A DNA stretch of 64,000 nucleotides. It comes from Phytophthora sp. 'mugwort' (Eukaryota > Oomycota > Peronosporomycetes > Peronosporales > Peronosporaceae). Under the pieces are notes generated by a model. That model was not told the DNA's origin. It ran no database searches and saw only the letters and a list, made by a program, of their open reading frames with translations. The stretch spans positions 1,390,001-1,454,000 of the forward strand of contig JAUCEF010000003.1 in assembly GCA_033558025.1 (NCBI GenBank). Direction: 5' to 3'. The translations under genes were made by a program, and so were the position numbers. This document shows positions 1 through 61,041 of this stretch, one piece after another; position 1 is the first letter of the stretch, and each line of letters begins with the position of its first letter.

Positions 1-3000
1 TCTTGAGGATCGAGACCCGGTTGGCAAAGTCGCGTAGAGTGTACTGAGCGATGTCCTCCACCAGCAGCGTTGAGAGTCCTCGCACACCTTCCAAGTCGTC
101 GTGTCCATGGTATTTCAGCCACGTGTTCGTGTAATACAGCCGCAGTCGCTCGCGTACGTCGCGAGGAACGTCGTTGCTCTTGAGGAACTGGTACAACTCC
201 ATCAAGTTCTGTTCAAACAGCATCTTGTGCTTGTAGTTTGCCTCAATCATTTCTCCCTGAGCGCCCACAAGCACGCCAAAGATCAAGATACACACGACGA
301 TGAACGCAATCTCCACCACAGTTTCAATCACGTTCATACTGACCACGTCACCGTAGAAAATTGTCGTGATCGAGCCGACAGCAAAGTGAAGTGAGCGAAG
401 ATAGCGTCTCGACGTGGGGATCTCGCTGAGCGTCCCGAAGGCATCGACGGGCAGCATCTTGTACGTCGAAAGCCACGAATTGCCGTAAATATGGTACGCG
501 TGCAGCCCCAAACGGAACCAAAGGCAGGCAATCCAATGGCCCGACAACAAGTAGACGCACAATGTGCGGATGAAGTGCAGTCGGCTTTCGCTAATGGGCA
601 AGTTGAGATCAGCCGCCAGGAACTGCGTTAAACGCTCGCTGGCTTCAATGGACTCGACGACGCGTGGTATCTTGTTGAGCTGGAAGAGCGACATGTAGAA
701 CCATAAGTACTTGCTCAGGTGAGATGTGGAAAGTGGAGGGAGATACAGCAACAAGTCGAATGGCAGCGACGTCACCACGTCGATCCAGAAATGAGTCTTC
801 AAGTGCCGTCTCCACCAGGAACGACGCCGTTTTGACGAGCTTTTCTGCGTCGAGACGGCGCTGAGAGACCGCAAGCTGCCAGTTGACACCAGGGACGCCG
901 GGTTGTGGGGTTTGGACTGTTTACCTGCCGGGACGTCCGTGCTACCTCCAGCACTGAGCTGTAACACTCGATGGAAAGCCGAGTGTTTGAGTGCCAGATC
1001 TGCCACGCAAACAAAGTCGACGCAGATGACGATCCGCTCCCAGTACACAAGTGTGGCTTCATCTTCAGCGTCCTGATGGAACGTCACCATATCCGAGGCA
1101 AAACACACGAAGAACGGGATCGTCACGGCGTAAAACCCACCAACGAACACAATCACCCATTCCCACAGTCGATAACAACGCGAGAGCAAGTTGACGAAGT
1201 CTTCAGCCTTGCTGGACGTACTACTCGAGCTACCTTCCGGTAACAGGGAGCTAGAAGAAGACTCACTTCCGTTATGATGTGAGTCATGCAAAAGCGACAG
1301 AGGTCGTCGTGGTCTTGCCCCCCCATCATTACTCGATCGAGCAGACGACCAGCTACTGGGCCAGTTGAACCGCGTCATGTGCTCGTCGTACCATTGATTC
1401 CAGCGCTCCTTCCGGTTCAAGCATGACAGATAAACCCGGAAAAGTGACGAGAACTCGGGCTGACGGCAGCGCTGAAGTAGCTCAAACCCGAGGTTAAGTT
1501 TACTTTCGGATTCCTTTGCGTTCGAGTCCTGAAGCTCTTCGCGGATCATATACGCGAAGTGCCGGTCAAAAAGTGGCAATGACTGGCTCCGCTTCAGCTT
1601 GCGCTGCCGTCGATGCGTCCGTGCTGCCCCCGATACGTGACCAAATGATTGATGGAGCTCGTGTCCACGACCCGTCAAAGCTTGCTGTCCCCCAATGCTT
1701 CCTCGTGGTTGACGTTTCTCTCCAAGTCCGCGTTGACTCGGACGATTGCGAGACTCATAGTTGGCAAGGAATCGCATGCCATCCGTCGTGACCAGGCCGC
1801 GTGTGGCTCGTTGTGGACTTGCACCTGGTAACATCGCGCCGCAGAACGTCTTACGTGTTACTCGAATGTTTCGAGCAGCTTTGGAAGCTGTCGAGGTATT
1901 CTCCTCGTCGTGTCTCGCAGTTCCTTGAGCTGGTGCAGTCACTTGAATTGGCTGCGATTGAGTCAGTTGCTGCTGCTGAGGAACTGGTGCTACCGACGAG
2001 GTTGTTTCCACTGTGGTTTCGTCGGTAAATGCGTCCGCCATGAACAGCGACACCTTGTAGCGGCGCCAGCACTCATCTTCCATCTCGGCTAACTGATCGT
2101 CACGATAATACTCGCGCATACTGCGGCTAACGGGGTTGATCTGCACCGAGGTGCCATTCTTAAAGGACCTGCTTTTGACCAAAGCTAAACCTGGAAACGA
2201 ATGTCTCGCCATGTGCCGCGAAAACAGTCGACGGCTTCTACTTGGACCTGTCGTCGATAATGTCACGGTTCGCTTGTCACCTTCTACCAAGGAATTATCA
2301 GCGTAAATTCGACCAAGTTTCGCCGATCTGCGTCCTTCAGGCAACAAGTGATCGCGCGCCCAGTGCAGCAACACGGTCATTACATTCGGCGTCCCACTCG
2401 CGGCATCGACATCGGTCCTGCTGCCTCCGTACCCGACTGTCTTGGCCAGTAGCTGCCGGACTTTCCTCTCTTCGAGTGCAGAAGCCGAGATAACCCTCAG
2501 TGGATCCGTCACGGGTGCTTTGCGCTTTGTATTCAGTTCCCGGAGCTCCTCGATGAGTTTCGGCTTCTTCATACTGGCGCTGCCTTCGTTGCCTCCAGAC
2601 TTGATGCCTTTGACAATCTCGACCGTCATGATATTGTAGCCCTTCAAACAGAACTGCACCCACTGCACAAGAGCACGCTCTGTACTCTCAGCTTCTTCAC
2701 GAGGACTCGAAGCGAGCAGTTCTTCCCACGCACGTCGTCCCAGTACAAGCAGCTCGCTGCATGTCGTGGCTTGCACGGACGCAATTCGCCGTTGACCGCG
2801 AAGAAAAAATGCTACTTCCCCGAATAAACTCCCAGCGGTGATTGTCGCGACTGCCGTCCCCATGGATTTCCAGAGCACGACGCCCGTCCCGCCCTTGACA
2901 ATGTACAGCTTGTGACCGAGGTCGCCTTCTACAATAATGGTGTCGCCGGGGATGTAGAGCTCGGATTTAAGTCGCACTGCCAAACCGTTGATTTGCGTCT

Positions 3001-6000
3001 GGTTCAGGAAGGGTGCGATGCACAGATTTTGCAGCGTATCGCCATGAAGATCCATCATGAGCTGCACTCGGAGGTTTGGAGACAAGTCGCTGAAAGTGGC
3101 GTAGAGATCTAACCCTTTGAGGTACGTGTGCTGGAACTTGAGGTAGTGCAACACGCGCGTACGGATACTGGCCGGTAGATTATGGTCTTTGGCGAAGGAT
3201 TCAAAGTGAGCTTCACGTTCCTTGAGCTCCTTTTTGGTCTTATCCATCTCGAGGATAAGCTCCGAGAGTTCCCCGACGATATGACCGACGATAAACGCAC
3301 AACACAAACACGTGAACGTGGCCCAGATGGTGCCAGGCATTCCTAGCGGAACAATCTCCTTTGATCCGACAAGAGTGAGCTGGTAAACACAAGGTTTAAC
3401 GACGTTTTTAGTAGCAGACAACGTTATCAAGGAGTTTGAGGACAAATCGGGACTTACCGTGGTCAATGCCCAGTAGAAGGCACGCAGATACAACACACCG
3501 GTCGATTCATGCTCCATGTGGACAATGGGGTCGTGGTGAGTCCAGTTTTTCGGGTTGTGATCTGTATGGCAAATGAGGTAGAAGACACAAGCGGCCAAGT
3601 GGCCTGTGAACAGCAGAATGAGCACGAGTTTGAACGGACTAAGGTAGGCCGAGATGTTGCCACCTGTGGCAAAGCGCTGCTGCAGTCTCATGATGAGCGA
3701 ATCAATCATTTCGGGCACTTGACGCACGCGAACCAGTCGCGGCAGACGACATAAACTCATGGCGAGAAAGCTGTTCCCGATGTAATAGAGAGGGAGACTG
3801 CAGAGCACGTCGCTGCGTAGTTCGTGGCCCGTGTACGTCGAGCTCCGCTCTTCTCGTGAAATGAGGTTCCCCAGCCCCACATTTTCGCACTCAAAGAAGT
3901 AAAGTTTAAGGTAGATATCGGCCACGAGCAGGGCGTCGCCCACTAAGTCGGACGCCACAAGGCCAAAGCGTACACTACTTGACGGGTGGGAAAGAAATCC
4001 CACTCGAAACGTGACCAAGAAGGCGTTATAAATGTCTAGCAGCAAGACGAGCAGGTCCCAGTACAGCCGCAGCCGCATTTTGATCCGTTGCTGCGTCCAG
4101 TTTTCCTTCTCTTCGAACATACTCGTGCACTGTTCCGTAAATTTGGCCAAGGTTGCTCGAGATTTAATATTGTCGACCACTGCTTCGAGCGTCAACGTGT
4201 CCAAGATGTGCTGCTGTGTGGCTTGCATGCGTAGATTCTCCATCTCGGCTGGGAAATGCCGCTCCACGTTGGCAATGAAGGCAGTGTACGTGATGACAGA
4301 AGCGTCCACGACCGTCGCAGCGATGACGGTCGAGCTGAAACTCTTCTGGAGTATTAATTCGCACACGCCAAAGCAGTCACCAGCCGAGAGCGCGCCGACG
4401 GGCACAGCTCCGACGCGTTTACTAAAGACATTGGCTCGTCCGTTCACCACCACGTACATGGCCTCACACAGCGTTCCCTCGGCGAAAAACGGGTCGCCAC
4501 GCTGGAAAAGCTGGCGCCGGAAAAGCCCCGTCAATTCGTACAGCAAGCGCTCGTTCTGCGCGTCAACAAACAGAGGAACTTTGCGCACCGATTCGGCGTG
4601 TAAGATGCTTGAAATGCGGTGACGGAGCTGCATTGGTAATCCATCCAGTAATTGCGTCTCAGACGTCACTTTTTGCACGTAAAGTTGTTGATGGTAGAAC
4701 TGTCGCACTCGCGCTCGGACGCTCTCAGAGATCCGAAAATGACCGAGAGTCACGTTCACGGTGTTGATCTTCTCCGAATGGTGGCGACTACCGGCTGTGA
4801 GATTCGAGATAATGTTCGACATGGCGCCTACAACGCCGTAATTGATGAGGCCGCCGATAAAGACCCAGCACGCGGCAAAGTAGCTTTCGTAGGTCGAAAA
4901 AGCGACGATATCACCGTATCCGACGGTCGTGAGCGCCACGATCGCCCAGTAGATTGACCGCACGTACGCCATCTTGACAGAATAAATGGAATGCTCGGGG
5001 TCTTGGACCTTGAACGTCGTGCCGATCTGTCCGTACGCGTCGTACAATGTCCACGAGCAATTGCCGTACAGCCCGGCGTCACGTAGACACCGATCGCGTG
5101 TGAACTCTTCGACGATAGGCTCGAATTCGTCTTCCATGACACTGAAACGAGCCATGAGAAACCATAAACAACCCGCAACATGAAGCGTCAGAGTCACATA
5201 CAACAGCATCGTCCCCGCTTCTTGTAACTTTGACGATAAAGCTCGAATATGTGCAAATTCCTGGATACTTTGTTGGAGATAACGCGCACGTAGCAAGCGA
5301 ACAAGGCGGCTCATGTGAAGCCACATGGTCCAGCCGTTCCCGCGACGAACCACAAACTCTACGAGCAGCGGCAAGGGAACGATAGCGACCAGATCCGACC
5401 ACATGCCATTCTCCCGGTACGCATCCAAAATGTAGCTCGGGTCGCTCACGGTGATGAGTGCAAGCTGGTCAATGTAGGCGAAAAAGCGTGCTCGAAGCAC
5501 GAAATCGACCATGAAAAAGGCCTCAACAAGGATGGACGTCATCGACTGCACCGAGAACAGGGACCTCAAGCCGAACGGGAACGTGTCGGCGTCGAATACG
5601 CAGTAAAGCGGCACCTCGAAGACCACAAAGACGAGCGAGAACAACCTAGCGTGCTCCCACCATTTCCGGAAACTCGAGCCAGGCATTCTCCACGGAATCT
5701 TCGCGCGGGTATGCGCACTACGGACGTCGACGCCAAAACTGACACTGTATCGACCGCTGCTCCCGATGGGATTTGTCATTGTCGACACGTTCTCTAACGA
5801 ACGCCCAAGCATCTTTTTCATCTTCTGCTCTTGTTGGTCATGTCGAGCGTGTAGTGATCGCATCTCTTCCAAGTGCTGCGTAGCGTTCTCCCGGTAGAAA
5901 ATCGTCAACGTCTTGTAGAAGGCCGTCTGTGGGAGTTTGTACAGATCGCAGTACGTCTGCGCGCGTGCGCGTTCGTCCGACCGTCCTGGGAAAAGCAGAC

Positions 6001-7558
6001 ACCCTTCTGCAAAGTGTTCCCCTGTCTTGGCAAAATGACCCGCAGGATGGTTCGGCCCGTCCAGTTGAACGCTACCACGCAGTACAAAGTACATTCCGTC
6101 GGGCAGGTTCTCGATCACCCAGTCCTTGGGCGAATACACACAGTACTCGATCCGTAACGCTAACGTGTTGATAAACTCAATGCTCTCTTTTGCCAAGAAC
6201 GCGACGTCTTGGATGCGATGAGCCTTGAGGACACTGTAGACACTCACTCGAAGATGACCGGGAAGGCGCTCGATCACTTCGTCGTGGTGGAGCGCGTGGT
6301 GGGTGGCCCATGCATTCTTATAGTAACTTAACACGCCTTCCCGTACCGTCTCGGGAAAATGCCGCATCAACATATACTCGTTGGCACTATCGACGTGTGT
6401 CATAAATTCCTGCATCCTGGCGTTGCGATGGCGAAAGATAAAGAGGAAGGTGGCGAGCACGGCGGTACTGAAGATGGCGCCGAGGATCTGCGCGAAAATG
6501 ACGTACAGAGTCTCGACGTTCGTCACGGCGCCCACATCGTAGAATCCCGTCGTCATGACGGACCGCGCGGCCCAGTACGCGGCCCGTCCGTACTGTCGCG
6601 CGACGTTCGTGCCGACCAAGTAATCTTCAATGGCCCAGCACGTGTAGCTCCCGCCGTCCCCGGTCGGTGAAACGGCAGTGATTCCTTGAGCTGTTCCGTG
6701 CTCGCCCGGTCCGGGGATTGTCATGAGCACGATGTTTGCTTTGCTACACAACATAAAGTCAATGCCACACTCCAAGTGGGCGATCGTCATGTAGCCACAC
6801 GCGATCCAGTGGCAAGCAGCGAGTCCCAGCACGACCGTATTGAAAAGCACTGCATTGCCAGTATACTCGAGCATTTGAACAATCTTCGAGTCTGTTGTAT
6901 ACATGTGTTTGATCTCCCGTACACACCCGGAGACGCGATACAAACGCAGTAACTTGAAGGTGCGTAAAATGTGGAGCGAATTAGGACCAAAGGCCAGTGC
7001 AAGCAGTTCGAACGGGATCATTGACGTCAATTCGAGGAGCACGGAGCGACGGATTCCACGATGTCGGTAACTAGTTGGGATCAGTGTGTTAAGTGACCAT
7101 GCGACCAGCATCGAGTCTCTCACGCGAGAGATAATCGACGGCCGTCGTTCCACCGCCTTTGGCCCTAACGTCGCTCGTTGTCGTCGAGTGCCAATGGCTC
7201 CAGTGGCGTCGGCAGCCACGGCTGCCTGTTCTCGACGTTGGGAGGCAAAAATATCTACCAAACTGGCAAACGCGGCAGCATCTGCCAGTAAATCGAGCAC
7301 TGTGAAGACCGTGAGCTCTGTCGTCCAGCCGGCACGCCAGGTTCTGCTCTCGTACGGGTCAAACAGGAAACCGATGCGTAGAGGGATAGATACAAAGACG
7401 TAGAATAATTCCAATATGACTATTCCGAGGAACAAGCCACGTTTCCGTCGTCGATAAAAGCTGGTTATTCTCTCCACAAGTCCTCTCTGTTTCCATGGTG
7501 CAGTAGCTGATGGAGCCGTCGATGGCATGCGGTCTCTCATGGTTGATAGTCGCGTCAT
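1..7558 (-). CDS. Giant concatenated channel with four 6-TM/cNBD-type units (3'-partial)
   Basis: One minus-strand frame stays open from ATG 7558 (in-frame TAG at 7565-7567 just upstream) to the left edge, about 2,490 residues, with one likely intron (3380-3457); CDS complement(join(<1..3379,3458..7558)). Four pore units share this frame. Unit 1: S1 near residues 42-64, filter TTGFYDVG near 337, cyclic-nucleotide-binding-like domain near 449-560. Unit 2: S1 near 637, canonical TTVGYGD near 879, cNBD near 990-1090. Unit 3: S1 near 1160, spliced filter TLTLVGSKE near 1370, cNBD near 1470-1590. A polar linker of about 500 residues with a Q-rich run follows. Unit 4: S1 near 2108, filter TTIFYGD near 2371, then S6. 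Single CNG/KCNH-type subunits normally tetramerise, so a four-unit chain could form a whole pseudotetrameric plasma-membrane pore. Only unit 2 has the standard K+ filter, so selectivity is unknown. The C terminus lies outside the window. Confidence 0.85.
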   Translation of the reverse strand, partial: MTRLSTMRDRMPSTAPSATAPWKQRGLVERITSFYRRRKRGLFLGIVILELFYVFVSIPLRIGFLFDPYESRTWRAGWTTELTVFTVLDLLADAAAFASLVDIFASQRREQAAVAADATGAIGTRRQRATLGPKAVERRPSIISRVRDSMLVAWSLNTLIPTSYRHRGIRRSVLLELTSMIPFELLALAFGPNSLHILRTFKLLRLYRVSGCVREIKHMYTTDSKIVQMLEYTGNAVLFNTVVLGLAACHWIACGYMTIAHLECGIDFMLCSKANIVLMTIPGPGEHGTAQGITAVSPTGDGGSYTCWAIEDYLVGTNVARQYGRAAYWAARSVMTTGFYDVGAVTNVETLYVIFAQILGAIFSTAVLATFLFIFRHRNARMQEFMTHVDSANEYMLMRHFPETVREGVLSYYKNAWATHHALHHDEVIERLPGHLRVSVYSVLKAHRIQDVAFLAKESIEFINTLALRIEYCVYSPKDWVIENLPDGMYFVLRGSVQLDGPNHPAGHFAKTGEHFAEGCLLFPGRSDERARAQTYCDLYKLPQTAFYKTLTIFYRENATQHLEEMRSLHARHDQQEQKMKKMLGRSLENVSTMTNPIGSSGRYSVSFGVDVRSAHTRAKIPWRMPGSSFRKWWEHARLFSLVFVVFEVPLYCVFDADTFPFGLRSLFSVQSMTSILVEAFFMVDFVLRARFFAYIDQLALITVSDPSYILDAYRENGMWSDLVAIVPLPLLVEFVVRRGNGWTMWLHMSRLVRLLRARYLQQSIQEFAHIRALSSKLQEAGTMLLYVTLTLHVAGCLWFLMARFSVMEDEFEPIVEEFTRDRCLRDAGLYGNCSWTLYDAYGQIGTTFKVQDPEHSIYSVKMAYVRSIYWAIVALTTVGYGDIVAFSTYESYFAACWVFIGGLINYGVVGAMSNIISNLTAGSRHHSEKINTVNVTLGHFRISESVRARVRQFYHQQLYVQKVTSETQLLDGLPMQLRHRISSILHAESVRKVPLFVDAQNERLLYELTGLFRRQLFQRGDPFFAEGTLCEAMYVVVNGRANVFSKRVGAVPVGALSAGDCFGVCELILQKSFSSTVIAATVVDASVITYTAFIANVERHFPAEMENLRMQATQQHILDTLTLEAVVDNIKSRATLAKFTEQCTSMFEEKENWTQQRIKMRLRLYWDLLVLLLDIYNAFLVTFRVGFLSHPSSSVRFGLVASDLVGDALLVADIYLKLYFFECENVGLGNLISREERSSTYTGHELRSDVLCSLPLYYIGNSFLAMSLCRLPRLVRVRQVPEMIDSLIMRLQQRFATGGNISAYLSPFKLVLILLFTGHLAACVFYLICHTDHNPKNWTHHDPIVHMEHESTGVLYLRAFYWALTTVSPDLSSNSLITLSATKNVVKPCVYQLTLVGSKEIVPLGMPGTIWATFTCLCCAFIVGHIVGELSELILEMDKTKKELKEREAHFESFAKDHNLPASIRTRVLHYLKFQHTYLKGLDLYATFSDLSPNLRVQLMMDLHGDTLQNLCIAPFLNQTQINGLAVRLKSELYIPGDTIIVEGDLGHKLYIVKGGTGVVLWKSMGTAVATITAGSLFGEVAFFLRGQRRIASVQATTCSELLVLGRRAWEELLASSPREEAESTERALVQWVQFCLKGYNIMTVEIVKGIKSGGNEGSASMKKPKLIEELRELNTKRKAPVTDPLRVISASALEERKVRQLLAKTVGYGGSRTDVDAASGTPNVMTVLLHWARDHLLPEGRRSAKLGRIYADNSLVEGDKRTVTLSTTGPSRSRRLFSRHMARHSFPGLALVKSRSFKNGTSVQINPVSRSMREYYRDDQLAEMEDECWRRYKVSLFMADAFTDETTVETTSSVAPVPQQQQLTQSQPIQVTAPAQGTARHDEENTSTASKAARNIRVTRKTFCGAMLPGASPQRATRGLVTTDGMRFLANYESRNRPSQRGLGEKRQPRGSIGGQQALTGRGHELHQSFGHVSGAARTHRRQRKLKRSQSLPLFDRHFAYMIREELQDSNAKESESKLNLGFELLQRCRQPEFSSLFRVYLSCLNRKERWNQWYDEHMTRFNWPSSWSSARSSNDGGARPRRPLSLLHDSHHNGSESSSSSLLPEGSSSSTSSKAEDFVNLLSRCYRLWEWVIVFVGGFYAVTIPFFVCFASDMVTFHQDAEDEATLVYWERIVICVDFVCVADLALKHSAFHRVLQLSAGGSTDVPAGKQSKPHNPASLVSTGSLRSLSAVSTQKSSSKRRRSWWRRHLKTHFWIDVVTSLPFDLLLYLPPLSTSHLSKYLWFYMSLFQLNKIPRVVESIEASERLTQFLAADLNLPISESRLHFIRTLCVYLLSGHWIACLWFRLGLHAYHIYGNSWLSTYKMLPVDAFGTLSEIPTSRRYLRSLHFAVGSITTIFYGDVVSMNVIETVVEIAFIVVCILIFGVLVGAQGEMIEANYKHKMLFEQNLMELYQFLKSNDVPRDVRERLRLYYTNTWLKYHGHDDLEGVRGLSTLLVEDIAQYTLRDFANRVSILK
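3380..3457 (-). other. 78-nt stop-free intron inside the third selectivity filter
   Basis: On the minus strand the donor GTAAGT starts at 3457 and the acceptor CAG ends at 3380. The length is a multiple of three, the phase is 0 and no stop codon occurs in frame, so both spliced and retained forms are translatable. Splicing gives LTT-LTLVGSKE, which resembles the CNG-channel pore pattern TLTTIGE. Retention would insert 26 residues between the pore helix and the filter and should disable that unit. The splice call rests on consensus sites plus the restored family pattern. Confidence 0.75.
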
Positions 7559-7833: not shown

Positions 7834-9804
7834 TTATTTTATCCAAGCGAATTTAAAAGAATAGTCAGCCCCTTTGGAGAAATTAATAACATATAGCAAC
7901 AATCAACGCGTTAGACGTGGATACTGTAGAACCAAATGACAAAATCTCGACGCACCGAAGTGGACGACTCGACAAGCCAACGTCACTAGCATCCAGATCA
8001 TCAATTTGCCCTGGACGAGCGCCTTCTGCGTTTCCAGGACGAATGCCAACTGATACAGAATTTGCACGCCGCAGTTCCGTCGGACCAGCGCTAGAAGAAG
8101 GAGAAAAGCAGCGACTTGTAGCAGACCAAATACAAACACGACACGTGCCGTGTACTCGACGTTCTGTCGGTTGACACCGTCCAGTTCGGTATGGTACTTG
8201 GCGTTCGGTAAGTGGACCATGAACATCATATAACTACAGTAAAAGAGCGGGATAAATGCTTCCAAATACGCCGTGAGAACGAGACATTCAGTGGTATATA
8301 ACACCTCCAGCGTCTCACGCAGTATGTTTGAATGCTCGATCAAGTCGGTAGGAATCCCTCCGGCCCCCAAGGCTACACAGCCTTGCCTCCGCTTTGTTAC
8401 AGTAATTATCGATGTCGCTTGTGCAATTGGATGAATAATACTTAACCGAGCTGGACTGGGACAAATTCGGTGAAATGTACTCGACATTGAGGCCGTTCGA
8501 AGTTTAGGAAGTTTGCGCTTAAACGATCCGGTTGTTTTAAAAGCCCAGCACCGCGTTTTGATCGGTTCCGTTAATAAATCACGTGGCAATTCTTCCAAGA
8601 CACAGAGGAGGTTGCGGTCAGCTGCATCGAGTTCGTGATGGAAGCTCGAGCGAACACGAACTCCACTTTGAAGTTGGCGTTGCAGTTGAGCAGGCGAGTG
8701 GCACATTGAAGCCAAGGCCGTAAGTAAATTATCGTTTGCGTCGGCCTCGACGGTCTCACGTAACCTTTGACGGATGGTACAAGTGCGTTGATGCATCCCC
8801 AGTAGTACAGTCACCGTTTGAACTAAATCTGTAACGATGAAGATCAGCATGGTATTGAGTGTAGAGGCACTCTCCAGACACGTGGCCAGGTACAGCGCAT
8901 TGTAGAAATCCACAGTGAAAATAACCGCTTCGGGCGTCAAGTCTTCGAGGTGCATAGTGCAATGCAGCACCACGTTCTTGACAATGAGCTTAATGACAGG
9001 CAGTAGTAGAATTACAGGCAAAACAAACTCTGTCGCTGACATGTTCTGGAATAAAAGTTGATAAACTGGATAAATCATACCCATGATCTTCTGTGTCGCG
9101 ATAAATGCCACGTACTTTGAAAGTTTCTTACTGTTGCCTAAGACGCAGTAAAGCAACGCTAGCAGCGGCACGTAGAACGCTGGAGTCATTGTGATGTAGA
9201 AGAACGGGATGGGGAATACTAACGTGGCGCCAACAAACATACCAATAGCTGTATAGATCCCCGAGATGCCCACAACAAACCCAACAAGCTGTCGAGAGGA
9301 ATGGGCAAATTCCTCGACCATATACTTGCCCTGAATGAGATAAGTGTGCGCGACTGCGCCAGCCAACATGGCTACACGACACCAGAAACCATAGTTGACT
9401 GCCCAACCTTCCGCTGGTTCCTGAAGTGGCAGTAGTTCCTGAAGTGTAACCATGAGCACCATGGGGACTGGCGTCCCCAAGCACACGACCAGCACTCGTG
9501 ACAATGATGTTGTGCGTGTATACTTATCCAGAGCCAATACGCGCTCGATCGAGTACTTGCCACCGTGGTAGCTCACTTGCAACGACGTCCAGAGACCGAC
9601 TACACACGTCAAGCAGGCGCGAATACGACCGCAGATTGATTTTACAGCACGTGAGTTACCATGTCGGACTCGAGCTTCCTCTAGTGAAGGCGAAATCATC
9701 GACACGACACGACACCAGCTATTGGAATGAGAAGAGGACGGAGACAAAGGACACTTTGAAGCTATTTTTGACAGTTTGCAAGTACGATGAAAAATACTCA
9801 TCAA
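7834..9804 (-). CDS. Orphan multi-TM family protein, copy 1
   Basis: Member of a polytopic membrane family with five intact copies in this window; I do not recognise a named domain. CDS complement(join(7834..7871,7956..9804)). Shared blocks in order: LQVSYHGGKYSIERVLALDK; a first membrane segment with GTPVPM; QELLPLQEPAEGW.VNYGFW; FPIPFF; a YPVYQ-LLLPVIK membrane block; EDLTPEAVIFTVDFYNALYL; a variable polar loop; an ECLVL-YLEAFIPLFY membrane block; and VLETQ...KLMIWM...VVHFG. About ten hydrophobic segments can be read. The annotated frame would end in an unrelated tail. Splicing an 84-nt phase-1 intron (donor GTGCGT at 7955, acceptor AG at 7872) gives the family ending GADYSFKFAWIK. The true start may be the internal Met at residue 36. 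It lies just upstream of the giant channel on the same strand. Confidence 0.8.
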
Positions 9805-9924
9805 AAATATCTCAATTGGAAAATATAGCTTATTTAATTAACGGTTTTCTCCGCTCCAAAAAAATTAAAAAAGCTCAGCGGACATAAAATAAGCTGGTAG
9901 CACTGCTTTTGCTAATTTTATTCC

Positions 9925-11809
9925 TTATGAGTTGGAGGTACTGTAGACCCAAGCAAACTTGAACGAGTAATCGACACCTGTAGCACAAAACACGTTAGAG
10001 ACCCCAGACGGGTTCCTGAGTTTTTTTAGAACCAAATACCGTACCAAAGTGGGCGACACGACAAGCTAAAGTTACCAGCATCCAGATCATTAATTTCCCT
10101 TGCACGAGCACCATTTGCGTCTCTAACACAAATGCCAGTTGATACAACACGTTCAAGCGGCACTTTCGTCGAATCAAAGCCGCCAGTAGCGCAAACGACA
10201 CGAGCTGCACCAAGCCAAAGAGAAAAACGATCGTGGCCGTGTAATTGACATTCTGGCGCGTCACATTTTTCAAATCGGTGTGGTATTTCGCGTTCGGAAA
10301 ATTGACCATAATTATCATGTAGTTTCCGTAAAAAAGAGGGATAAAGGCCTCGAGGTAGGCGGTCAGGACGAGGCATTCCATCGTATACAGCACCGCGAGG
10401 GTCTCGTTAAGCGTATTGGCGTATTGAGCTCGGGTCGCAGAAACCAATCGCGAATTTTCTCGAGAAATACACAGTTCACTGCTATGTAGACGACTGGATC
10501 TCCGTGTGTTTGGTCTTGTGGGATGCACTGCATTAAGATGACGTCGTCCTAGCAATTGGTGAAGCTTTTCCAAGCAGGAAGACGAGTTTGACGAATATTT
10601 TGGGCTACAAACGATCGATCCGTTCACATTGGGCCAACAATGTGCTAAATGAGACGTTTCCGTGACGGATTTCTCTATCAGAAAGAGCAAATTGTTGTCT
10701 GCAGGCGACAAGTCATGTGATAAACAAGACCGCACACGGATATCAGCAATCGTCTGAGTGGCAAGTTTATCTTGATTCTGACACAATAAACGGAGCGCCG
10801 CGAGTAGATCTTCCTCTGTAAACGCGTCTGTAACTTGACAAAGACGTTGCAAGATTGTGTCGGTCCGACGACGCATTTTCAGGAGCACTAGTAACGTCTG
10901 TGCGACGTCAGTGCCGATAAGAAGCAGCATGGTGGTAAGACTGGACGCAGTTTCCATGAACGTGGCGAGGTAGAGTGAATTGTAGAAATCTACCGTGAAA
11001 ATGACGGCTTCAGGCGTCAAATCTTCCAGGTTTTTAGTGAAATGTAGAACAACGTTCTTGGCCACGAGCTTGATAACTGGCTGGAGGAGAACGACTGGGA
11101 GAATGTAGTGCGTCGACGCCATCGTGTGGAAGAGCAATTGGTAGGCTGGATAGACCATCCCCATGACTTTTTGGGTCGCGATGTAGCACATACAATTCAC
11201 ACAGCGCTCCCGTAACATGACACTCAATAATAGGAACAAAGGGATGTAAAAAGATGGCGTCATAGTGATGTAAAAGAACGGGATCGGGAAGAAACACACG
11301 GCCGAGACGATCATACTAGCCGCGGTGTGAATTAAAGACAAGATCGTCATGAATACAGCAAGTTGGCGCCAGGATAACGTGAATCCATTCACCATAAAGG
11401 TCCCTTGAATGAGAAATGTGGTCGCTGTCACGGCGGATAACATCAACACACGTATCCAGAAGCCATAGTTGGCACGCCAGCCGTCTGCAGGGTCCTGTAG
11501 AGGTAGTAATTCTTGTAAAATAACTAGCAGGAGCATTGGCAGCGGCGTTCCAATGCAGACGAAAAGCACGCGAGTTAAGGACGTTGTCCGCATATACTCA
11601 TCCAGCGCTAAGGACCGCTCGATCGAGTATTTTCCACCATAATAACTGACTTGAAGGGAGCTCCAGAGACGGAGTAGACGTGTGAAGCCTTTATGAAGTT
11701 GAGCAGGAGAACTCGTGACGGGAATGTCGCCAGTTTGGTGCTCAGTTTCTTGCTCAGGAGCAGCGGAAGCCTCCGTCGTGGCATCCGCACGATCGTTTGT
11801 GGGGTCCAT
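9925..11809 (-). CDS. Orphan multi-TM family protein, copy 2
   Basis: CDS complement(join(9925..9977,10045..11809)), 605 residues. This is the cleanest copy: a short polar N terminus, then LQVSYYGGKYSIERSLALDE at about residue 52, the GTPLPM membrane segment, QELLPLQDPADGW, FPIPFF, YPAYQLLF, EDLTPEAVIFTVDFYNSLYL, a variable loop and a C-terminal membrane block ending VAHFG. A 67-nt phase-1 intron (donor GTACGG at 10044, acceptor CAG ending 9978) joins to GVDYSFKFAWVYSTSNS-stop. Without splicing the frame ends in an unrelated tail. The function is unknown. Its similarity to copy 1 across the whole length indicates tandem duplication. Confidence 0.85.
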
Positions 11810-12038
11810 GAAGGAGAGTCAAACACAACGAAAAGGAGAAGTACATCTAGCAGATCAAGACTAAAACAACTACCTAACTATTCTTAATTCTGACCGAAAT
11901 ACCGCGAAATTCTAAGGGCCATCAATAGCTTGAGCTATGACGAAGCTGACCATCCTCGAGACGCACAATAACCGCGACTATAGCGGCCAAAGTCTACACT
12001 AGTGTCTGGTACATTGGATATTAAAGTGTTTCTTGGTC

Positions 12039-14037
12039 TCACTTGGCTGGATCCTCCATCCAGGTAAACTGCAGAGTGAAATCGACTCCTGCATTGGCAC
12101 ATTCGTACGTACATTGGGTTAGTACAAATCTTAATACTCTCACCATAATCTACACGGGACGTACCAAAATGTACAACTCGGAACGCCAAGATAACGAGCA
12201 TCCACATCATCACTTTGCTTTGAATAAGCGCTACTTGGGTCTCCAGGACGAAAGCAAGTAGGTAAAAAGCTTGCAGTCCGTACTTTCGCTGTAGCATTAT
12301 TGCAAGAAGTGCAAACGAGACGAACTCGAGGATTCCAAAGATAAAGACAGATTTTACCGTGTCAGCTACGTTTTCGCGAGTAACGTTATGTAATTCGGTA
12401 TGATATTTCGCGCTTGGGAGGTAGACCATGACAAGAATAAAGTTGGCGTAAAGCATGGCTATAGTAGTGTGCAAATACGAGACAAGCACGAGGCACTCGG
12501 ACGTAAAGAGAGCTTCCAACCCTTCTCGAAGAATATTGGAGCGTCGATACACAAGTGAATTCTGTCTGGAAGATCTTTTCCCTGTCGATCGAGCTTCCGA
12601 AGCCGGAAAGACGAGCATACGGGTTGGTACGATGGCCGTTCCGTGAAATTTTGCATAAAGGAGCGACATTTTTGCACGGTTCTCGACATTAAGTGATACA
12701 ACACGTGCAAAAGAACCGTTTGAGCTCGATCGGGCGACTTTTCTTCCTTGTTGGACCTTCTCCAAGTTATTAAGGCAATGATGGCTTGCTGACGATAACG
12801 TATGAGGGAGACACGATCGTACAGAGATTCCACCAAGATTTTGTTTCCCAATTTTCTCAGAATTACCACAGATTTGTCGCAGTAGACTAACGAGAGATTC
12901 TTTATTGTCCATAGTTCCCGCTGCTCGATGAGCTCGTGCCAGCATTGTGCGGCTTCGTCGGTGAAGCCCGTACAACATTGAGACGGACTGGGCGACGTCG
13001 ACTGTGATGATGATTGCCACGGTGATGGTCGCGCGTGTGCGCTGCATACATGTTGCGAGATAGACTGCGTGGAAAAATTCGACTGTGAAAATGACTGCCT
13101 CTGGCATCATATCTTCGCTATGAACCAGCGCGAGCGTGACAATATACTTCATGACGATTTTAATTAGTGGCAAGAGTAAGATCACTGGAAGTTCGTAGGA
13201 AGTATTCGCTGTTGCGTAAAAAATCACTTCATAGATCGGATACACCACAGGAATGAGCATTTGGCTGCACATATATTGAGCAAATGCGATCAGTTCTTGT
13301 CTGCACTGTAGCATATTCCGAACTGTTTGTTTACCAACAATAACCGTGAACCAAATAACGAGCAGCAGACAGAAAATGGGAATTGTAGATAGAGTAAAGA
13401 ACGGAATGGGGAATCCCACCAGAGCTGCAAGACCCATAGAGACCACTGGATAACTCAAAGCCTGGCACGTAAAGAGCAGCCCTAGCTGACGTAAGGTGAC
13501 AGTGGCGGCTCGAACCATATATTTCGCCTGAACAGCGATCGTACAGCTTACCATGCCTGCTAATATTCCCACTCGCAGCCAAAATCCGTAATTCACTTTC
13601 CAGCCATCTCTCGGATCCCCGAGAGGCAGCGATTCTTGTGAAAGTACCAGGAGTATCATAGGTACCATCGCTCCGGTCACTACAATTGCCACTCGTAGCT
13701 GCGACGTGTTTTCCATATATTCGTCAAGAGCCAGCAGACACTCACAGGAATATCTACTTCCTCGGTAGCTTACTTGAAGAGATTGCCAGCGACGAAACAG
13801 CTCTCTCGATCCCTTTTGGACCATGCGAATGCCATTTCTCAGAGAATCGGCATGGTTTAAGCGAAGAGATGATTGCCGAAGTGGCGGGACGGCAAGCATG
13901 ATGCAAATAATAGCATAGAACAAGTTGGTACGTTGCAAAGGAGGGCCGTACAGTACACAATGGTTGGCTATTTCTGAGCATTGTAGATAAAATATTTTAG
14001 AAACGCTTGATAAAAAATAGGTTACGTGGATCATCAC
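12039..14037 (-). CDS. Orphan multi-TM family protein, copy 3
   Basis: CDS complement(join(12039..12088,12165..14037)). The family blocks are present but more diverged: LQVSYRGSRYSCECLLALDE, QESLPLGDPRDGW, FPIPFF, YPIYEVIF, EDMMPEAVIFTVEFFHAVYL, ECLVLVSYLHTTIAMLY and VLETQVALIQSKVMMWM. A 76-nt intron (donor GTACGT at 12164, acceptor CAG ending 12089) restores the final GVDFTLQFTWMEDPAK-stop. The listed N terminus begins with a hydrophobic stretch not shared by relatives. The internal Met at residue 47 (13899) gives a leader of the same length as copy 2 and is the more likely start. The function is unknown. Confidence 0.78.
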
Positions 14038-14240
14038 GTCACCAGTGAGAATGAATAATCTTATCGTCGTGCGTCTCTAGCGTTCATAGCCAGCTTTAAT
14101 TAACATTTGTGTGCCTATAATTCATGCTAAGCAAATATTTTATTTCTTCTAATCAGCAATTCGAAGTCGAAACTCGCCAGCTACACAGATTGAGCCTCTA
14201 TATTTTACAATGATCGAGATAGAGCTCGGTAGTCTCGATA

Positions 14241-16420
14241 CTATCCTACAGGAGTCCAGAACTTCGGAAATCCAAGACGAGCATATTCAAATTTAAAATC
14301 AACACCTGGTCCAAGCACGAATAAAATAATGTGGTTAATTGAAAATCAAGGAAAAAATAGTAATTACTGAAAGACTTACCATAGTGTATGACCCGAAAGC
14401 ACAGTGTTATGACCATCCAAAGCATCATTTTGCATTGAATAAGCGACCTTTGTGTCTCCAGCACGAACCCAAGTTGGTACAACGGCCTCATTCCGCAGTT
14501 CCGCTTAATCACCACCAGAAGGAGCACAAACGAGATGATTTGTAGCAGTCCAAACACAAAAAAGCGAAGCATCGTACTCCCCACGTTTTCGCGCGTCACG
14601 ACTTTCATCTCGGTGTGATACTGCGCATTATTGAGATGAACCATCGTCAACATGTAAGTGCAATAGAATAAAGGCATGAACGCCTCCACATACGCCGTGA
14701 TGAGAAGACATTCAGCCGTGAAGAGCGCTTCCAAAGACTCTAACAGAATCATTGAGCGTCCGGATACTGGTCGATGTTTTCTCAGACCTCGTTTTATACC
14801 ATTGGGATTAATAGGATGGATAACCTTGGTCTCTTTTCGTGAGCAAATCGAGGAAAAACAACATCGAGTTGGCAGGATATCCTGGTTCGGTATGCTTGGA
14901 TAGCGCGGACCAGTTGAAAATTTGGCTGAATTTTGAGATTTCTTAGATTCTGCACTTACATCAGCTAGGATTTCATCCAGACTTCCCAGCACGTGTTTGC
15001 TCATCGTAGAAATCGGATGAGGAAGACACGATCGTCTACGGATCCCTACGTGTGACAACTTCTTAAAACTCGCTGGATTCCGACATAAAGTGCAGATCAT
15101 AGTCAGCATATTGTCGTTCTTGGTAGTACTCTCGACTGTTTCATAAAGTCTCGTTAAAATACACGACGTTCGACGTTGCATACCACAGAGCATAATAATT
15201 GTCTGGGACAAATCGGTCACGACGATAGCCGCGACTGTCGCGGTCGAAGACGCACTGTGCATGCACGTCGCCACGTAGACGGCATTGAAGAAATCTGCTG
15301 TAAAAATGACTTCCACCGGGATCATATCTTCCAGACTCTTGGCATAATGAAGCACAACATTCTTTAAGGCAACTTTAAGCACCGGCAGAAGTAGAATTAC
15401 AGGGACTTGGTACGATGTTCCTTCCGCTGCGTGGAACAAACTTTCGTAGATTGGGAACAGAAAGACCATCGACGTCTGAGCACACACAAAGCGAACGCAT
15501 CGAGTCACTTGATCTCCGTGTGCGAGCATTCGACTCATCGCACGAGCTCCCACGACGATACGAATAGAAGCAACCAGCAAGAGGAAAAACGGAGGCGCCA
15601 CGAACAAGACGAAGAACGGAATGGGGAACACTAAATAGGCCGCGACGAGCATTGCAAACGCTACGACGCAGGCTGGCATACAAATGTAGAGTAAAAGCAC
15701 TTGCGATGTAGATAGAACAAAGTCGTCAATGAGATACGTCGCTTGGACTATTAGCGCATGCGTCACGATACAGACTAGCACTGCTGTTCGTATCCACATG
15801 CCGTAATTCGCACTCCATCCGTCGCTTAGCTCTTGAAGCGGGATTAATTCTTGTCCGTAGACCAATGCGATCATGGGCAATGGCGTCGCAATGAAGACGA
15901 GCAAAACCCGTCTGAACGATGTCTTCTTCGTGTACTCGTCGAGCGCGAGCACGCGATGAATCGAGTACTTGCCACCGTAATAACTGACCTGCATCTGCTG
16001 CCATCGATGTAAAAGTTTGATAAAGACTTGGACTCTCCAGCTTCGTTCGCTTGGTACGGGAGCTGCCGCATTTCTTAAAGTACTCAGCGGGCAAGATATT
16101 GGTGCTACAGACGCCATCCCCGTTCTATGACTCAAAGAATGGAAGAAGGGTGGTTTCGTGAGTCCACCCGGAATACTTAAAACTGCGACGCCTAAATTGA
16201 GCTGAGCCTTACTTGCTTTACGTGATGAATTACGCGGGCAATTTACTACATTGGTCTGCCTCCCTCTGCATGTGACCAGACTAATGGTCGCAGCTTTAAA
16301 AGCGTTTGGTGGTTCTCTGACTTTATCCTTACGCCCACTTATGATAAAAATGGGATTTAACAATCTGGTAGCTAACATGTAAATACATAAAGTCTCTCGC
16401 AATTTCGATGCATGGGGCAC
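14241..16420 (-). CDS. Orphan multi-TM family protein, copy 4
   Basis: CDS complement(join(14241..14305,14380..16420)), with a probable real start at 16117 (MASVAPIS), because about 100 upstream residues have no counterpart in relatives. Family blocks: MQVSYYGGKYSIHRVLALDE, GQELIPLQELSDGW, FPIPFFVLFV, FPIYESLF, LLLPVLKVALKN, EDMIPVEVIFTADFFNAVYV, ECLLITAYVEAFMPLFY and LETQRSLIQCKMMLWM. A 74-nt phase-1 intron (donor GTAAGT at 14379, acceptor CAG ending 14306) joins to GVDFKFEYARLGF and stops at 14241. It is first in transcription order in the four-copy array. The function is unknown. Confidence 0.78.
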
Positions 16421-25559: not shown

Positions 25560-28478
25560 CTCATTCGAGAGTCTGCCGGATGGTGCGCATCCGCACCAGC
25601 CCGCGCGGGAAGATCGTCGCCGCCGCCGCCCGCGACATCGACTTCCCGCACTTCTGGAAGCAGCTGCAGGCGGCGGGGTGGACGTATAAGCGGTGGGGCG
25701 GGCTCGCGACGGAGGGGAGCTATATCAGCCCTGAAGGCTCTGGCGTGTTCGTCTGGGGAGGGTGCTGGTGGCGCACGCGGTGCGGTCGGGCCTGCTTGAC
25801 GACGGCGATGGGACACAGGGATGCCCAGCGCGAGCGCGGCGGCCGCGAGCACGACCGCGACGCCGAAGAAGACCAAGAAGACGCTGAGCATGCCCATGAA
25901 AACCCGGATCGTGAGAGCGGCGTCCAGCGCGGCCGGCGCAACGCCAAGCGCGGTTGTGGCAACGCCTAGCGCAAGCACGACGCCCAACACCTCCGTCGCG
26001 ACAGCGACGACCCCAAGCGCGAGTGAGGACGCCAACGTGAGCGCGTCGCAGATTGGCATGACCGTAGCGCTGTCGCAGGGGACGCTCAACGCCTTGTTCG
26101 ACTCGCAGGGCACGTTTGACGTCGAACTGAGTCAAGCTGCTGTTCCGCGGGCTTTAGGCCTGTCCCCGAGCGTCTTCCAGGCCGACACGTCGCTACAGGA
26201 GGCCGCAGTGAGCCCGCAGCCGCTATCGGAGGCATCCGGGCTCGAGGAGGAGGCCCCGGCTCCGACAGGCTGAACTTCGCCCGCGGACGCGCATGAAGAA
26301 GAATGTGAACTACGTACCGGACGACGAGAACACGAGCGACTACGTGAGCATCAACTCCACATGCAGCGGCGGAGAAGGCTTCGGCGAGGATGGGGACGAG
26401 CCCAAGCCAGGAGATCCAGGCGAAGACGATGACGTCCTCTCGGACGGCGACGCGGTCGAGATGGACGAGGCATTCATCGACTCGCTGCTGATCGGGGAGG
26501 ACTCACTCTGTGGGGCGGCAAAGAAGCAGCGCGAGGACGCGCTGCGCGCGACTGCGTGGACGCCCGTGTCGTCGGACTTCGAGACGGGCGAGACGGCATA
26601 CGCCGGTATGGGCGACGAGATAACGTTTCCCGTGGCTGAGTTGCGTGCTTTGGCGCACTCGCCGCTTCCGACGTTCTTGTACTTCATGCCCAAGTCTCTG
26701 TGGGTCTTGACCAACGCCGAGACCAACCGTTACGCTCTCCAGCACCTCGCTAGGCGCGCACAGGCACTTCATGGCAAGCAGCGGGGCGGGTGGGACGATA
26801 CCTTCCAAGCAGATCTGACGGCGGCTGAAGCTGAAGCGCGGGTACGAGATCCACGAGATCCTGCACGTGATTGGACTCGTCGTCGCGCGGATGTTGTGCC
26901 CACAGAGCCCCGCTTCGCAGACCACTGGTGGATGGTCGAGGACGGCGCAATCCCTGCCGGCAACTTCGGCCGCTTCATGGGGCGGAACCGGTGCCAGGAC
27001 ATCCTCCGCGACCTGCACTTCGTCGACAACGAAGTGGCGCAGACGCGAGACAAGCTCTGGAAACTCCGGCTGGTCATCGACAAGCTGCAGCAGCGGTTTC
27101 GTGCGGGGTGGTCGCTGCCGGCGGGGTTCTCGTTCGACGAGGGTGTGCTTCCGGCGACATCCCAGCGAAACACGACGCGCATGTTCATGCCCGACAAGCC
27201 GCATCGATACGGATCGAAAATGTTTATGATGTGCGACTAGAGGGATGGCTTACTGCCACAGACACGCTGCTTTTTTTTTGCAAAGTTGTTAATGTCGTAA
27301 CTTATGTCTTAGTGATCCAATGCTTGCGTTCTATGTCGTATGTAACTAGATTTGAGCTGTACGCGGGCAAACGCGTTGCTGGTGGCCGAGTTGACGCCGC
27401 ATTCGACAACAAGACAGACGCTGCCGCAGTGGTGCGCAACTTGAAGGTCGTGCTCGGGCCGAATAGGCACCCGTGGCACGCGGTCGTGATCGACCGCTTC
27501 TATTCGTCGGTCCTGTTGGCGATCGAGCTCTCAAGATGAATGTGTATGTGATCGGCACGATCATGACAAACCGGCTCGGATACGACAGCAGCGTCAAGGA
27601 GAGCCGCTAGACCCGACATGCAAGTATCCCCCGCGGCACTTTTATGTTCTCCCGCTCCGTGGCCGTCCCCACCATGGTCGCTTTCCACTGATGGGACCGG
27701 AAGCCCGTCCACTACTTGTGCACGGGCGCGGTGATGACGGAGTCAAGCATCGGGAAGAAGGTCAAGCAGGTGGGGGCAGTTCGGCACAGTGACGGACTAC
27801 CAGCGCTGGATGAAGTTCAAGAAGTATTACAAGAGCCTCTTCCTCGACTTCGTCGACATGGTATTGGTCAACTCGTACCTATCGCACAAGGAGGCCGCGC
27901 GGATGACGGGGACGCCGGCAATGAAGCGTGGCGAGTGGTTTAGCGTGCTTCAGAACCAGCTGCAGCAGCAGCTGATGGTTCCGGACTTCGCCAGCGTGGC
28001 CTCTACGCCGCCGCGCACGACCCAGAAGCGCAGGCGAGCCCCCGTCCGCCACACGCACGCGCCCGAGCAGAGCGAGGACTGGGTGACCTTGAGCGGCGTG
28101 CAGAAGCGCCGGCAGAGGTCGTGCAAGGTCTGCGCGCTGCTGCGCATAGACTCGTCCAAGCAGTCGTACGCCACCACCTACTTCTGCGAGCGGTGCTCGC
28201 TGGACGACGCCAAGTTGTGGCTGTGCAACAAGATCAGGCATGAGTACAAAGGAGTCACCAAGACGTGCTTCGAGATTTGGAACGACGACTTCAATGCTGG
28301 GACTCGATCCCACCTACCTTGGGGAAGCATGTGGTCCTGCGCCGCCCCGGTTAGAAAGCTGGCTCGCGGAAGGAGGCCCGACGGAAGCTCCAGCTGCGCG
28401 CGGATGACTGCGACAACGGAAGCGAGAGCGACGAGGATGAGGGCAACGACGATGAATGAGCTGCGTGTCACGCGATGA
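25560..28478 (+). pseudogene. PiggyBac-like transposase, broken
   Basis: Parts in order: an N-terminal motif with DIDFPHFWKQLQAAGW and YKRWGG at 25630-25700; a Ser/Thr/Ala-rich linker at 25821-26273 ending at a stop; an acidic stretch and the transposase core at 26293-27240 (HWWMVEDGAIPAGNFGRFMG, SFDEGVLPATSQRNTTRMFM); then VVRNLKVVLGPNRHPWHAVV and DRFYS at 27430-27510; and a cysteine ribbon (CKVCALL...YFCERCSLDDAKLWLCNK) at 28120-28230. Breaks are a frame change near 25740, a stop near 26271, a stop at 27238-27240, an 88-bp insertion at 27262-27349 and further frame changes near 27540-27790. The region is markedly GC-rich compared with its flanks. Confidence 0.75.
27262..27349 (+). repeat. 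88-bp insert in transposase resembling the element's own right end
   Basis: The coding similarity is interrupted after TACTGCCACAG (27261) and resumes at ATTTGAGCTGTAC (27350). The insert has a T-run, an AAGT-GTT-like segment, a GTCGTAACTTATGTC palindrome and CTTAG...TCC. The same order occurs at 28579-28632. It lacks a GT donor at its left border, so it is not an ordinary intron. Confidence 0.5.
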
Positions 28479-60800: not shown

Positions 60801-61041
60801 GAGTCGCTCCAAAGCAGCAAGAAGCCCAACGTTGGCCGATATACTGTGGAAGCGGAGCAATACGAGCGGCGACCTGCTCAAACACACGGACGAAGAGCGC
60901 AATGCGGCGCGATTGCGGCGGCAGATTCGAGCTCGCCACAGTTTACCGTCAGAAGTTACAGCGGAGCAAGCATCGCCCAGAGCGGATGACGAGACGACGG
61001 GGCAGCTCAAACCAGCCTTTTTTCTGGGCTCTGGTGACTGA
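57898..61041 (+). CDS. CNG/KCNH-type channel with LIQGQGN filter and split cNBD
   Basis: A single exon of up to 1,047 residues; the first 48 are low-complexity and the true start may be Met 58042. Six membrane segments lie between about residues 125 and 370. S4 is LMLLRLLRGAFIEKG, with few charges. The pore reads YYYAVSLIQGQGNSGGTW (filter near 322-331), with no GYG or GFG. The S6-C-linker contains FGNVAMLVSNFNANSTNYH. The cyclic-nucleotide-binding fold begins at about 437-491 (VPFWEDCTPDFLTQLV) and resumes at about 608-652 (HPGEAFGEMSLLMNYKRTAN, with the phosphate-binding GE and R.A). An acidic, Asp/Glu-rich insert of about 110 residues separates the halves. The last 350 residues are disordered. 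Ion selectivity cannot be predicted. Confidence 0.87.
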   Translation: MPTSSPRAHSVTKRPPVARHPGAVAILTRHPSSRTLYKTGEKAATHDAMIQRFQLRRMSSSAGFPSKFGRANDVVIDKAMGDLQRHRRFSLRRSIRAITSIKTRRQVFRRLTSPMTPYSWASTAHGVVMLTIYHFQVLYLPFFVSYYRNGLSTVAIFLEIIFLLDLLLNFNTAYMKQGVIVKSRGKIAQQYMRKWFVFDLLSAVPVQSLYCSGANSIKCTNTAIRDVQILLMLLRLLRGAFIEKGILVNRVTRVAKHLVDWIRYSRYSHLLGIAQLMWAVLLVAHYMACIWHVVSGDKFTHAMQPKSVGEQYAADYYYAVSLIQGQGNSGGTWDENLYSSVAIIVGSVILAIVFGNVAMLVSNFNANSTNYHRKMEAVYATMDKMELPSKLRERVNEYYKHVWQEYEALDGNVNKFQQELTHTLGIEIGLYKHMNLVVKVPFWEDCTPDFLTQLVLNLGVRVYMPDDYVVRRREVGCEMMMVNRGYCKLSKPSKTIVDEKAAKETTTTDTPYKPVFTLQDLAAGNSVNITQATDDEEDSDDGSSDDETDEIFRGGMFGTSIDSRWMSRNSNSQSDTMNFTDMNRLRHVHPQRPSYPNGIELKKGRRHREYLHPGEAFGEMSLLMNYKRTANVRAVTFVEMCVLDRDTFQKIISRYPEDRRRVLTRMLESCIDKKLIPFPWEKIIAEVSTKRGKEDLSHSSVIASMTTSEAARILVEEIDVSTPDESIKYGFQSYDEAFLDDSSLCYSNSADTKISDRRNSVTRSDPLRDSSSDNRSSMSDTTELKAEQLADTSSSQHSSPTLSNLLMLMQSMADNIERLQKDVNDLKTRERRGCSCGKGGLGSINSQRPTASHLEVAPRSSRAPNKANAMTTKEDNLSQTSRKPSFVILPTASLKPDHHTGDAKRPTSTLRKIRSSRQESGIKDRPDHFPTRDHTKILPIQATASEVSQLDEPPVLETEPDRYPTNTSSRSKAARSPTLADILWKRSNTSGDLLKHTDEERNAARLRRQIRARHSLPSEVTAEQASPRADDETTGQLKPAFFLGSGD

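Follow-up and report, generated by a model that had tools for sequence, protein, structure and literature searches.

A Phytophthora gene predicted to encode a single-chain, four-unit channel with cyclic-nucleotide-binding domains, one canonical and three altered filters

Does a single gene of Phytophthora sp. 'mugwort' encode four channel units in one chain, each with its own selectivity filter, and what kind of pore would such a chain form? The question is raised by the left end of the window, that is the whole stretch of 64,000 nucleotides that was analysed, which belongs to a genome assembly of 86 Mb in 154 contigs. The initial annotation had described there four pore units in one uninterrupted minus-strand frame, followed by cyclic-nucleotide-binding modules. 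To our knowledge, only covalent four-repeat channels, of which Nav, Cav and CNGK are known, provide a natural route to a pore whose four filter strands all differ.

Read from the ATG at 7558, the frame contains 2,671 codons in total without any internal stop and extends beyond the left window edge, ending 458 bases to the left of window base 1. Inside the window there are 2,519 codons and 0 stops; the five alternative frames over bases 1-7558 contain 63 to 110 stops apiece, and at this base composition a run of 2,671 codons would stay open by chance with a probability of about 10^-48. Pfam assigned Ion_trans to four stretches of the window part and cNMP_binding to three, and a fourth cyclic-nucleotide-binding domain (CNBD), in frame with the rest, was found to the left of the window. 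Both the four pore units in one frame and the modules behind them were recovered, with a CNBD behind each unit and the last one beyond the window edge. Every unit consists of a 6TM part with a pore, followed by a C-linker and a CNBD, as in the CNBD-channel superfamily (for unit 4 this was read from sequence only). The S4 segments of units 1-3 carry three or four regularly spaced basic residues, and the S4 of unit 4 is poorer. Pfam found no domain in the linker between units 3 and 4 and, up to E 0.1, no PAS (eag) domain as in KCNH in the window part, N-terminus included. We consider the four-unit architecture of the gene product as almost certain. The positions of all the features are collected in Table 1.

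Table 1. Features of the four-unit gene (window positions, unless a C3 contig coordinate is given)
Feature	Position	Strand	Basis
Whole coding region, window part	1..7558	-	Open frame; continues left to C3:1389543
Unit 1 (6TM, pore, C-linker, CNBD)	5723..7486 (residues 25-612)	-	Structure model and SthK match
Unit 1 filter, MTTGFYD	6536..6556	-	Register of unit 2
CNBD 1, without ligand-contact Arg, Glu kept	5909..6103	-	Sequence comparison
Unit 2 (6TM, pore, C-linker, CNBD)	4145..5707 (residues 618-1138)	-	Pfam and structure model
Unit 2 filter, TTVGYGD, canonical K+ type	4910..4930	-	Sequence
CNBD 2, Glu to Val, Arg to Phe	4262..4510	-	Sequence comparison
Unit 3	2531..4144 (residues 1139-1676 of the unspliced frame)	-	Pfam and sequence; fold of unit 3 of a P. 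cactorum relative
Predicted in-frame intron, GTAAGT...CAG, 78 nt, inside the unit 3 pore	3380..3457	-	Comparison with homologues
Unit 3 filter, TLVGSKE	3356..3376	-	Register of unit 2
CNBD 3, ligand-contact Glu and Arg both present	2708..2953	-	Sequence comparison
Long low-complexity linker between units 3 and 4	1199..2530 (residues 1677-2120 of the unspliced frame)	-	Sequence as read
Unit 4, window part	1..1198 (residues 2121-2519)	-	Pfam and sequence; charge-poor S4
Unit 4 filter, TTIFYGD	347..367	-	Register of unit 2
CNBD 4, Glu and Arg present	C3:1389711-1389938, left of the window	-	Sequence comparison

The flanking genes were examined by Pfam and pairwise BLAST. At 7903-16420 of the window, on the minus strand, there are four adjoining long open frames of 633, 604, 700 and 724 aa, with a mutual identity of 37-53%, in which no Pfam family reached the cut-off. 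A 1,047-aa frame at 57898-61041 (plus strand) matches cNMP_binding once and Ion_trans not at all, and a match to the transposase DDE_Tnp_1_7 (PF13843) is located at 26293-27240 (plus strand).

Structure prediction covered part of the pore only, namely units 1 and 2 of this protein and unit 3 of one relative. The AlphaFold2 model of units 1 and 2 (1,114 residues, 36 sequences) had a mean pLDDT of 79 and a pTM of 0.72 and consisted of two tandem 6TM-CNBD units, whose top PDB matches were human CNG channels (TM-score by target of about 0.8). The nearest PDB sequence to unit 1 was SthK (E 2.5e-25). The predicted unit 3 of the relative from P. cactorum was CNG-like as well (pLDDT 80, pTM 0.51).

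The frame is uninterrupted in that it has no stop, but the mRNA probably is not, as an intron is likely in unit 3. In the raw translation, 26 residues separate the unit-3 pore helix (YWALTT) from the filter (LTLVGSKE). Bases 3380-3457 begin with GTAAGT and end with CAG, are 78 nt in length, in frame and stop-free, and probably represent an intron that splits the unit-3 pore. With this segment removed the protein has 2,645 residues, unit 3 reads YWALTTLTLVGSKEIVP and its pore spacing is the same as in the other units. The contiguous pattern from pore helix to filter of unit 3 was matched by 89 of 125 proteins. A string of the type [VA]G[ST]x[ED] was present in 91 of the 125, two of them outside the contiguous pattern: in P0052 the unit-3 pore is contiguous with one variant residue, and in P0079 the string is a chance match near the C-terminus and no filter. 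The gene model P0119 of Phytophthora lilii terminates with YLRAFYWALTTVSSSFQV, which resembles a read-through into the intron. A unit 3 with a 26-residue pore insert was rejected in favour of the intron on account of the GT-AG ends, the spacing of the units and the contiguous homologues.

Mapping of the codon positions placed all four filter strings in the one frame from ATG 7558, as initially annotated: TTGFYDVG is at residue 336 (codon from 6553), TTVGYGD at 877 (4930) and TTIFYGD at 2398 (367), with TLTLVGSKE between the unit-2 and unit-4 strings. The reading of one canonical and three altered filters also stood, but the register of unit 1 was off by one, since its filter aligns with that of unit 2 as MTTGFYD. 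In unit 1 the first Gly and the final Asp are kept and the second Gly is replaced by Tyr; in unit 3 Tyr-Gly is replaced by Ser-Lys, so that Lys occupies the place of the second Gly; in unit 4 the first Gly is replaced by Phe.

Homologues were searched with the full-length protein and with unit 2. The full-length search (7,976 candidates scored) yielded at least 83 proteins with E<=1e-10. Among the matches listed, the best had 84% identity at 100% coverage, and Phytophthora, Pythium, Globisporangium, Albugo and Saprolegnia are among the genera named. With unit 2 as query, 98 proteins were found at E<=1e-5, and this search added the diatom Thalassiosira profunda, the labyrinthulomycete Hondaea fermentalgiana and metagenomic proteins. 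The database names are hypothetical, cyclic nucleotide-binding domain-containing, or voltage-gated ion channel. To the 120 proteins which the searches supplied we added the spliced window protein and four paralogues of this genome, which made a set of 125 sequences. Four pore matches were found in 89 of them, three in 18, two in eight, one in seven, five in two and eight in one. Unit-specific profiles gave the order 1-2-3-4 in 75/121, 1-2-3 in nine and 2-3-4 in four. The sequence with eight pore units, P0008 (Pythium oligandrum, 4,070 aa), has the order 1-2-3-4-1-2-3-4 and is perhaps two adjacent genes merged in one model.

The four paralogues of the window's own genome (L018, L019, L020 and L021) have four units each in a single open frame, and the family is expanded in oomycetes. 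Units lying in separate genes, which the initial annotation had named as the sign of a run-through, were not what we found in this genome: five genes carry four units in one frame. Further CNBD genes of the same genome differ in layout. L022 (G000:C10:1486501-1496500) has four pore matches, three in a 1,906-aa frame and one upstream, and L023 (G000:C9:3346501-3356500) also has four, three in a 1,510-aa frame plus one; the filters of both are wholly degenerate (e.g. TGLFEGELP, SASSEPEFP, KKARNVAP). L026 (G000:C18:3145501-3152500) is a two-unit CNBD frame of 1,405 codons with the filters GVGYGD and TVGYGD, which fits the two-repeat tandem type. In L024 (G000:C7:4869501-4879500), which is P0100/P0103-like, the pore matches are spread over several frames (GQGD, GFGD, FGD, CYGD), and it is probably a four-unit gene with introns.

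We considered as core proteins the 77 sequences with four pores in the order 1-2-3-4, near-copies included. GYG or GFG was absent from units 1, 3 and 4 alike in 76/77 and present in unit 2 in 77/77, with VGYGD in 75/77. Checked unit by unit in this way, the filters proved conserved among the core proteins, both the altered three and the canonical one. Precisely, the second Gly position of unit 1 was non-Gly in 73/77, the second Gly position of unit 3 was Arg or Lys in 66/77, and the first Gly position of unit 4 was Phe or Trp in 70/77. At the level of the second Gly, the four units of the window protein form the ring Y-G-K-G. Among the 77 the rings were D-G-R-G (46), Y-G-R-G (12), Y-G-K-G (three), G-G-G-G (three), N-G-N-G (two) and S-G-N-G (two), the others being single. 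The outer acid ring D-D-E-D was found in 65/77. Since this odd arrangement is conserved among related species, the four-unit layout probably represents a channel type of its own and not an artefact.

In distant four-unit proteins units 1, 2 and 4 are near-canonical and unit 3 is odd, with the filters VVVIGD (diatom and Hondaea), VVCFGD (P0095) and LVVYGD (P0097). For this reason the unit-3 change, judged from the filter strings, looks older than those of units 1 and 4; through the diatom and labyrinthulomycete relatives, the order of the filter changes becomes readable and testable. Another distant four-unit member, P0079 (Saprolegnia parasitica, 2,373 aa), has the filters AFGD, GFGP, DYRD and AFGD; its unit 3 shares with the core family an Arg in place of the second Gly.

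In a tree of 88 units, each repeat position of 21 stramenopile-type proteins, some of them metagenomic or without firm species, formed one side of a branch, with SH-aLRT values of 94, 87, 73 and 94 for repeats 1-4 (none starred). Repeats 1 and 3 clustered with a support of 92. This tree was built without P0107, P0108, P0082, P0122, P0084 and P0110, which have long branches or two units; in the first tree, which included these six, repeat 3 was split into 15 and 6, and repeat 3 of P0107 was placed with repeat 4. P0118, a protein with four units and canonical filters that we used as the stand-in for CNGK, formed a separate clade (support 98). Joining its repeats to the matching stramenopile repeats was rejected by the AU test (p 0.0047, 0.00032, 0.00081 and 0.011 for repeats 1-4), which suggests, with P0118 as the only stand-in for CNGK, that the four repeats may have arisen separately in stramenopiles. 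The homologues, which have equal length and unit order, the paralogues of this genome and this repeat-by-repeat phylogeny together support the initially proposed covalent four-unit CNBD channel having one canonical and three altered filters.

Covariation between units 1 and 3 was followed on a tree of 80 proteins, from which P0079, P0097, P0100, P0103, P0008 and one gapped row were left out and to which three-unit models were added. Within the D-R clade there were two losses of the unit-1 Asp, both accompanied on the same branch by a change of the unit-3 Arg to Asn; the unit-3 Arg was lost five times in total, three of them without loss of the Asp. Weighted by branch length, the chance of the double coincidence was 0.0055, a value calculated after the pattern had been seen, and the independent-pairs sign test for these two units was not significant (p 0.5). 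This weak covariation is a hint that the filters of units 1 and 3 meet in one pore.

The ligand-contact positions of the CNBDs were placed by alignment to SthK and LliK, and the aligned Glu and Arg columns are those which we take to be the ligand contacts, from this alignment and from general knowledge of CNBDs. In the core proteins the Glu is present in 76/77 in each of CNBDs 3 and 4, and the Arg in 64/77 in CNBD 3, in 74/77 in CNBD 4 and in 0/77 in CNBDs 1 and 2. At the Glu position CNBD 1 has Asp in 49/77 and Glu in 23/77 (Glu in the window protein), and CNBD 2 has Val in 67/77. Because the column preceding the Arg position of CNBD 1 is K or R in 45/77, a shift by one residue could rescue a phosphate contact in that domain.

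We propose, giving it about even chances, that the gene product is a pseudotetrameric CNBD cation channel that conducts cations other than K+ and is controlled via CNBDs 3 and 4. The four units of the single chain would close one pore, predicted to be cation-conducting and probably not K+-selective, because three of the four filter strands cannot supply the GYG backbone. The predicted pore would be lined by four acids forming a ring (D, D, E, D). One step further in would come a second, asymmetric ring, Y-G-K-G here and D-G-R-G in most paralogues, whose unit-3 basic residue would face unit 1. Binding of cyclic nucleotide to CNBDs 3 and 4 would open the channel or shift its voltage dependence, with CNBDs 1 and 2 as structural parts. 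The unit-3 basic side chain could also block permeation, which is a point against conduction. Only tentatively do we go further, to a four-repeat CNBD channel of the stramenopiles' own, in which the oomycetes would have rebuilt a K+-type filter into an asymmetric and charge-paired one (acid or Tyr in repeat I, a basic residue in repeat III and the outer acid ring), selecting Na+ or passing mixed cations. If true, this would be an independent counterpart of the repeat-III Lys of Nav on the base of a cyclic-nucleotide-gated channel.

A four-repeat protein that does not conduct, its filter being plugged and its role being that of a voltage or cyclic-nucleotide sensor or of a scaffold, is an unlikely explanation, though one to which the predominance of a basic residue in the unit-3 filter lends some weight, as do L022 and L023, multi-unit CNBD genes of the same genome with wholly degenerate filters. 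Against it, VGYGD of unit 2 and the D-D-E-D ring are retained in most core proteins, and this retention suggests selection on a working pore. CNGK channels are K+-selective and are opened by cGMP, or by pH in zebrafish. We regard as improbable a K+ channel of the CNGK type whose altered filters are still K+-selective. The four 6TM-CNBD units, as in CNGK (PMC4749565, available part), and the canonical unit 2 agree with it, but CNGK pores have GYG or GFG according to the same part of that source, and here three units lack them in nearly all core proteins; moreover, the repeats do not join those of P0118, the CNGK stand-in. From the filter loss in 76/77 and from the AU tests against P0118, a K+-selective CNGK homologue was set aside as unlikely.

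The units could also conduct within a larger assembly, e.g. a pair of adjacent chains, in which case a single chain's filter would not be that of the pore. None of the results obtained here demands one chain per pore; we nevertheless hold this arrangement to be very improbable, as four ordered, unit-specific filters suit one chain per pore, and so does the coupled change of units 1 and 3, although weakly. Hardly any credence is left for the view that separate channel genes have been read through or fused in the long frame, or that it is an assembly artefact: 33 of the 125 sequences, as database gene models, have one to three pore matches, but full-length homologues occur across many assemblies, four further four-unit open frames are present in the same genome and the clades follow the repeat position, and on these three grounds separate genes read through were rejected.

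We found no published description of this four-repeat family in the open-access literature that was searched. A survey of calcium signalling in oomycetes reports numerous CNG and HCN homologues, and the part of it available to us makes no mention of a four-repeat CNBD channel (PMC4820453). Other sources on these organisms, likewise available in part, are a survey of diatom channels (PMC11085791) and a zoospore membrane proteome of P. parasitica (PMC12223298). In the accessible part of an RNA-Seq study of P. infestans, expression of cyclic-nucleotide-related genes, among them those for CNG channels, falls mostly in sporangia and zoospores (PMC5322657), and because of this one may reasonably guess that the present family takes part in zoospore signalling.

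The layout of a covalent four-unit CNBD chain, initially thought to depart from channels assembled of single-unit subunits, stands, but it has a precedent in CNGK of animals and a choanoflagellate, whose filters are GYG or GFG and whose single chain forms a pseudotetramer of four 6TM units, every one with its CNBD (PMC4749565, available part). Its repeats cluster as 1+3 and 2+4 in the available part of PMC7576140, and the clustering of repeats 1 and 3 is shared by the family described here; the differences are that GYG or GFG is here restricted to unit 2 and that the lineage is stramenopile. A search for CNGK relatives from P0097 gave 16 proteins, one of them animal (P0122) and none a clear CNGK. 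P0122, from the beetle Trypoxylus dichotomus (1,907 aa), has four CNBDs and four weak pore matches with degenerate filters, and was kept out of the 88-unit tree as too divergent. Two-repeat tandem CNBD channels were described in 2020 in oomycetes and dinoflagellates, and in the same source, as far as its available part goes, filters that deviate strongly from the consensus are a matter of individual channels and not of clades, TIGE of metazoan CNG channels being the sole exception (PMC7576140). The present proteins resemble these in having tandem CNBD units in oomycetes (PMC7576140, same part), but have four units instead of two, and a whole clade departs in three of them. In the present family one strand of a K+-type filter is unchanged and the other three are altered in a conserved pattern.

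SthK and the human CNG channels are the nearest to single units in sequence and in predicted fold, but are assembled from four separate subunits. In Nav channels the DEKA filter places a Lys in repeat III. With Nav and Cav the present protein shares four 6TM repeats per chain (24-TM) and an asymmetric filter and, with Nav, a basic filter residue in repeat III; it differs from them in the CNBD behind every unit, in the CNG-like predicted fold and in a filter derived from TTVGYGD and not from EEEE or DEKA.
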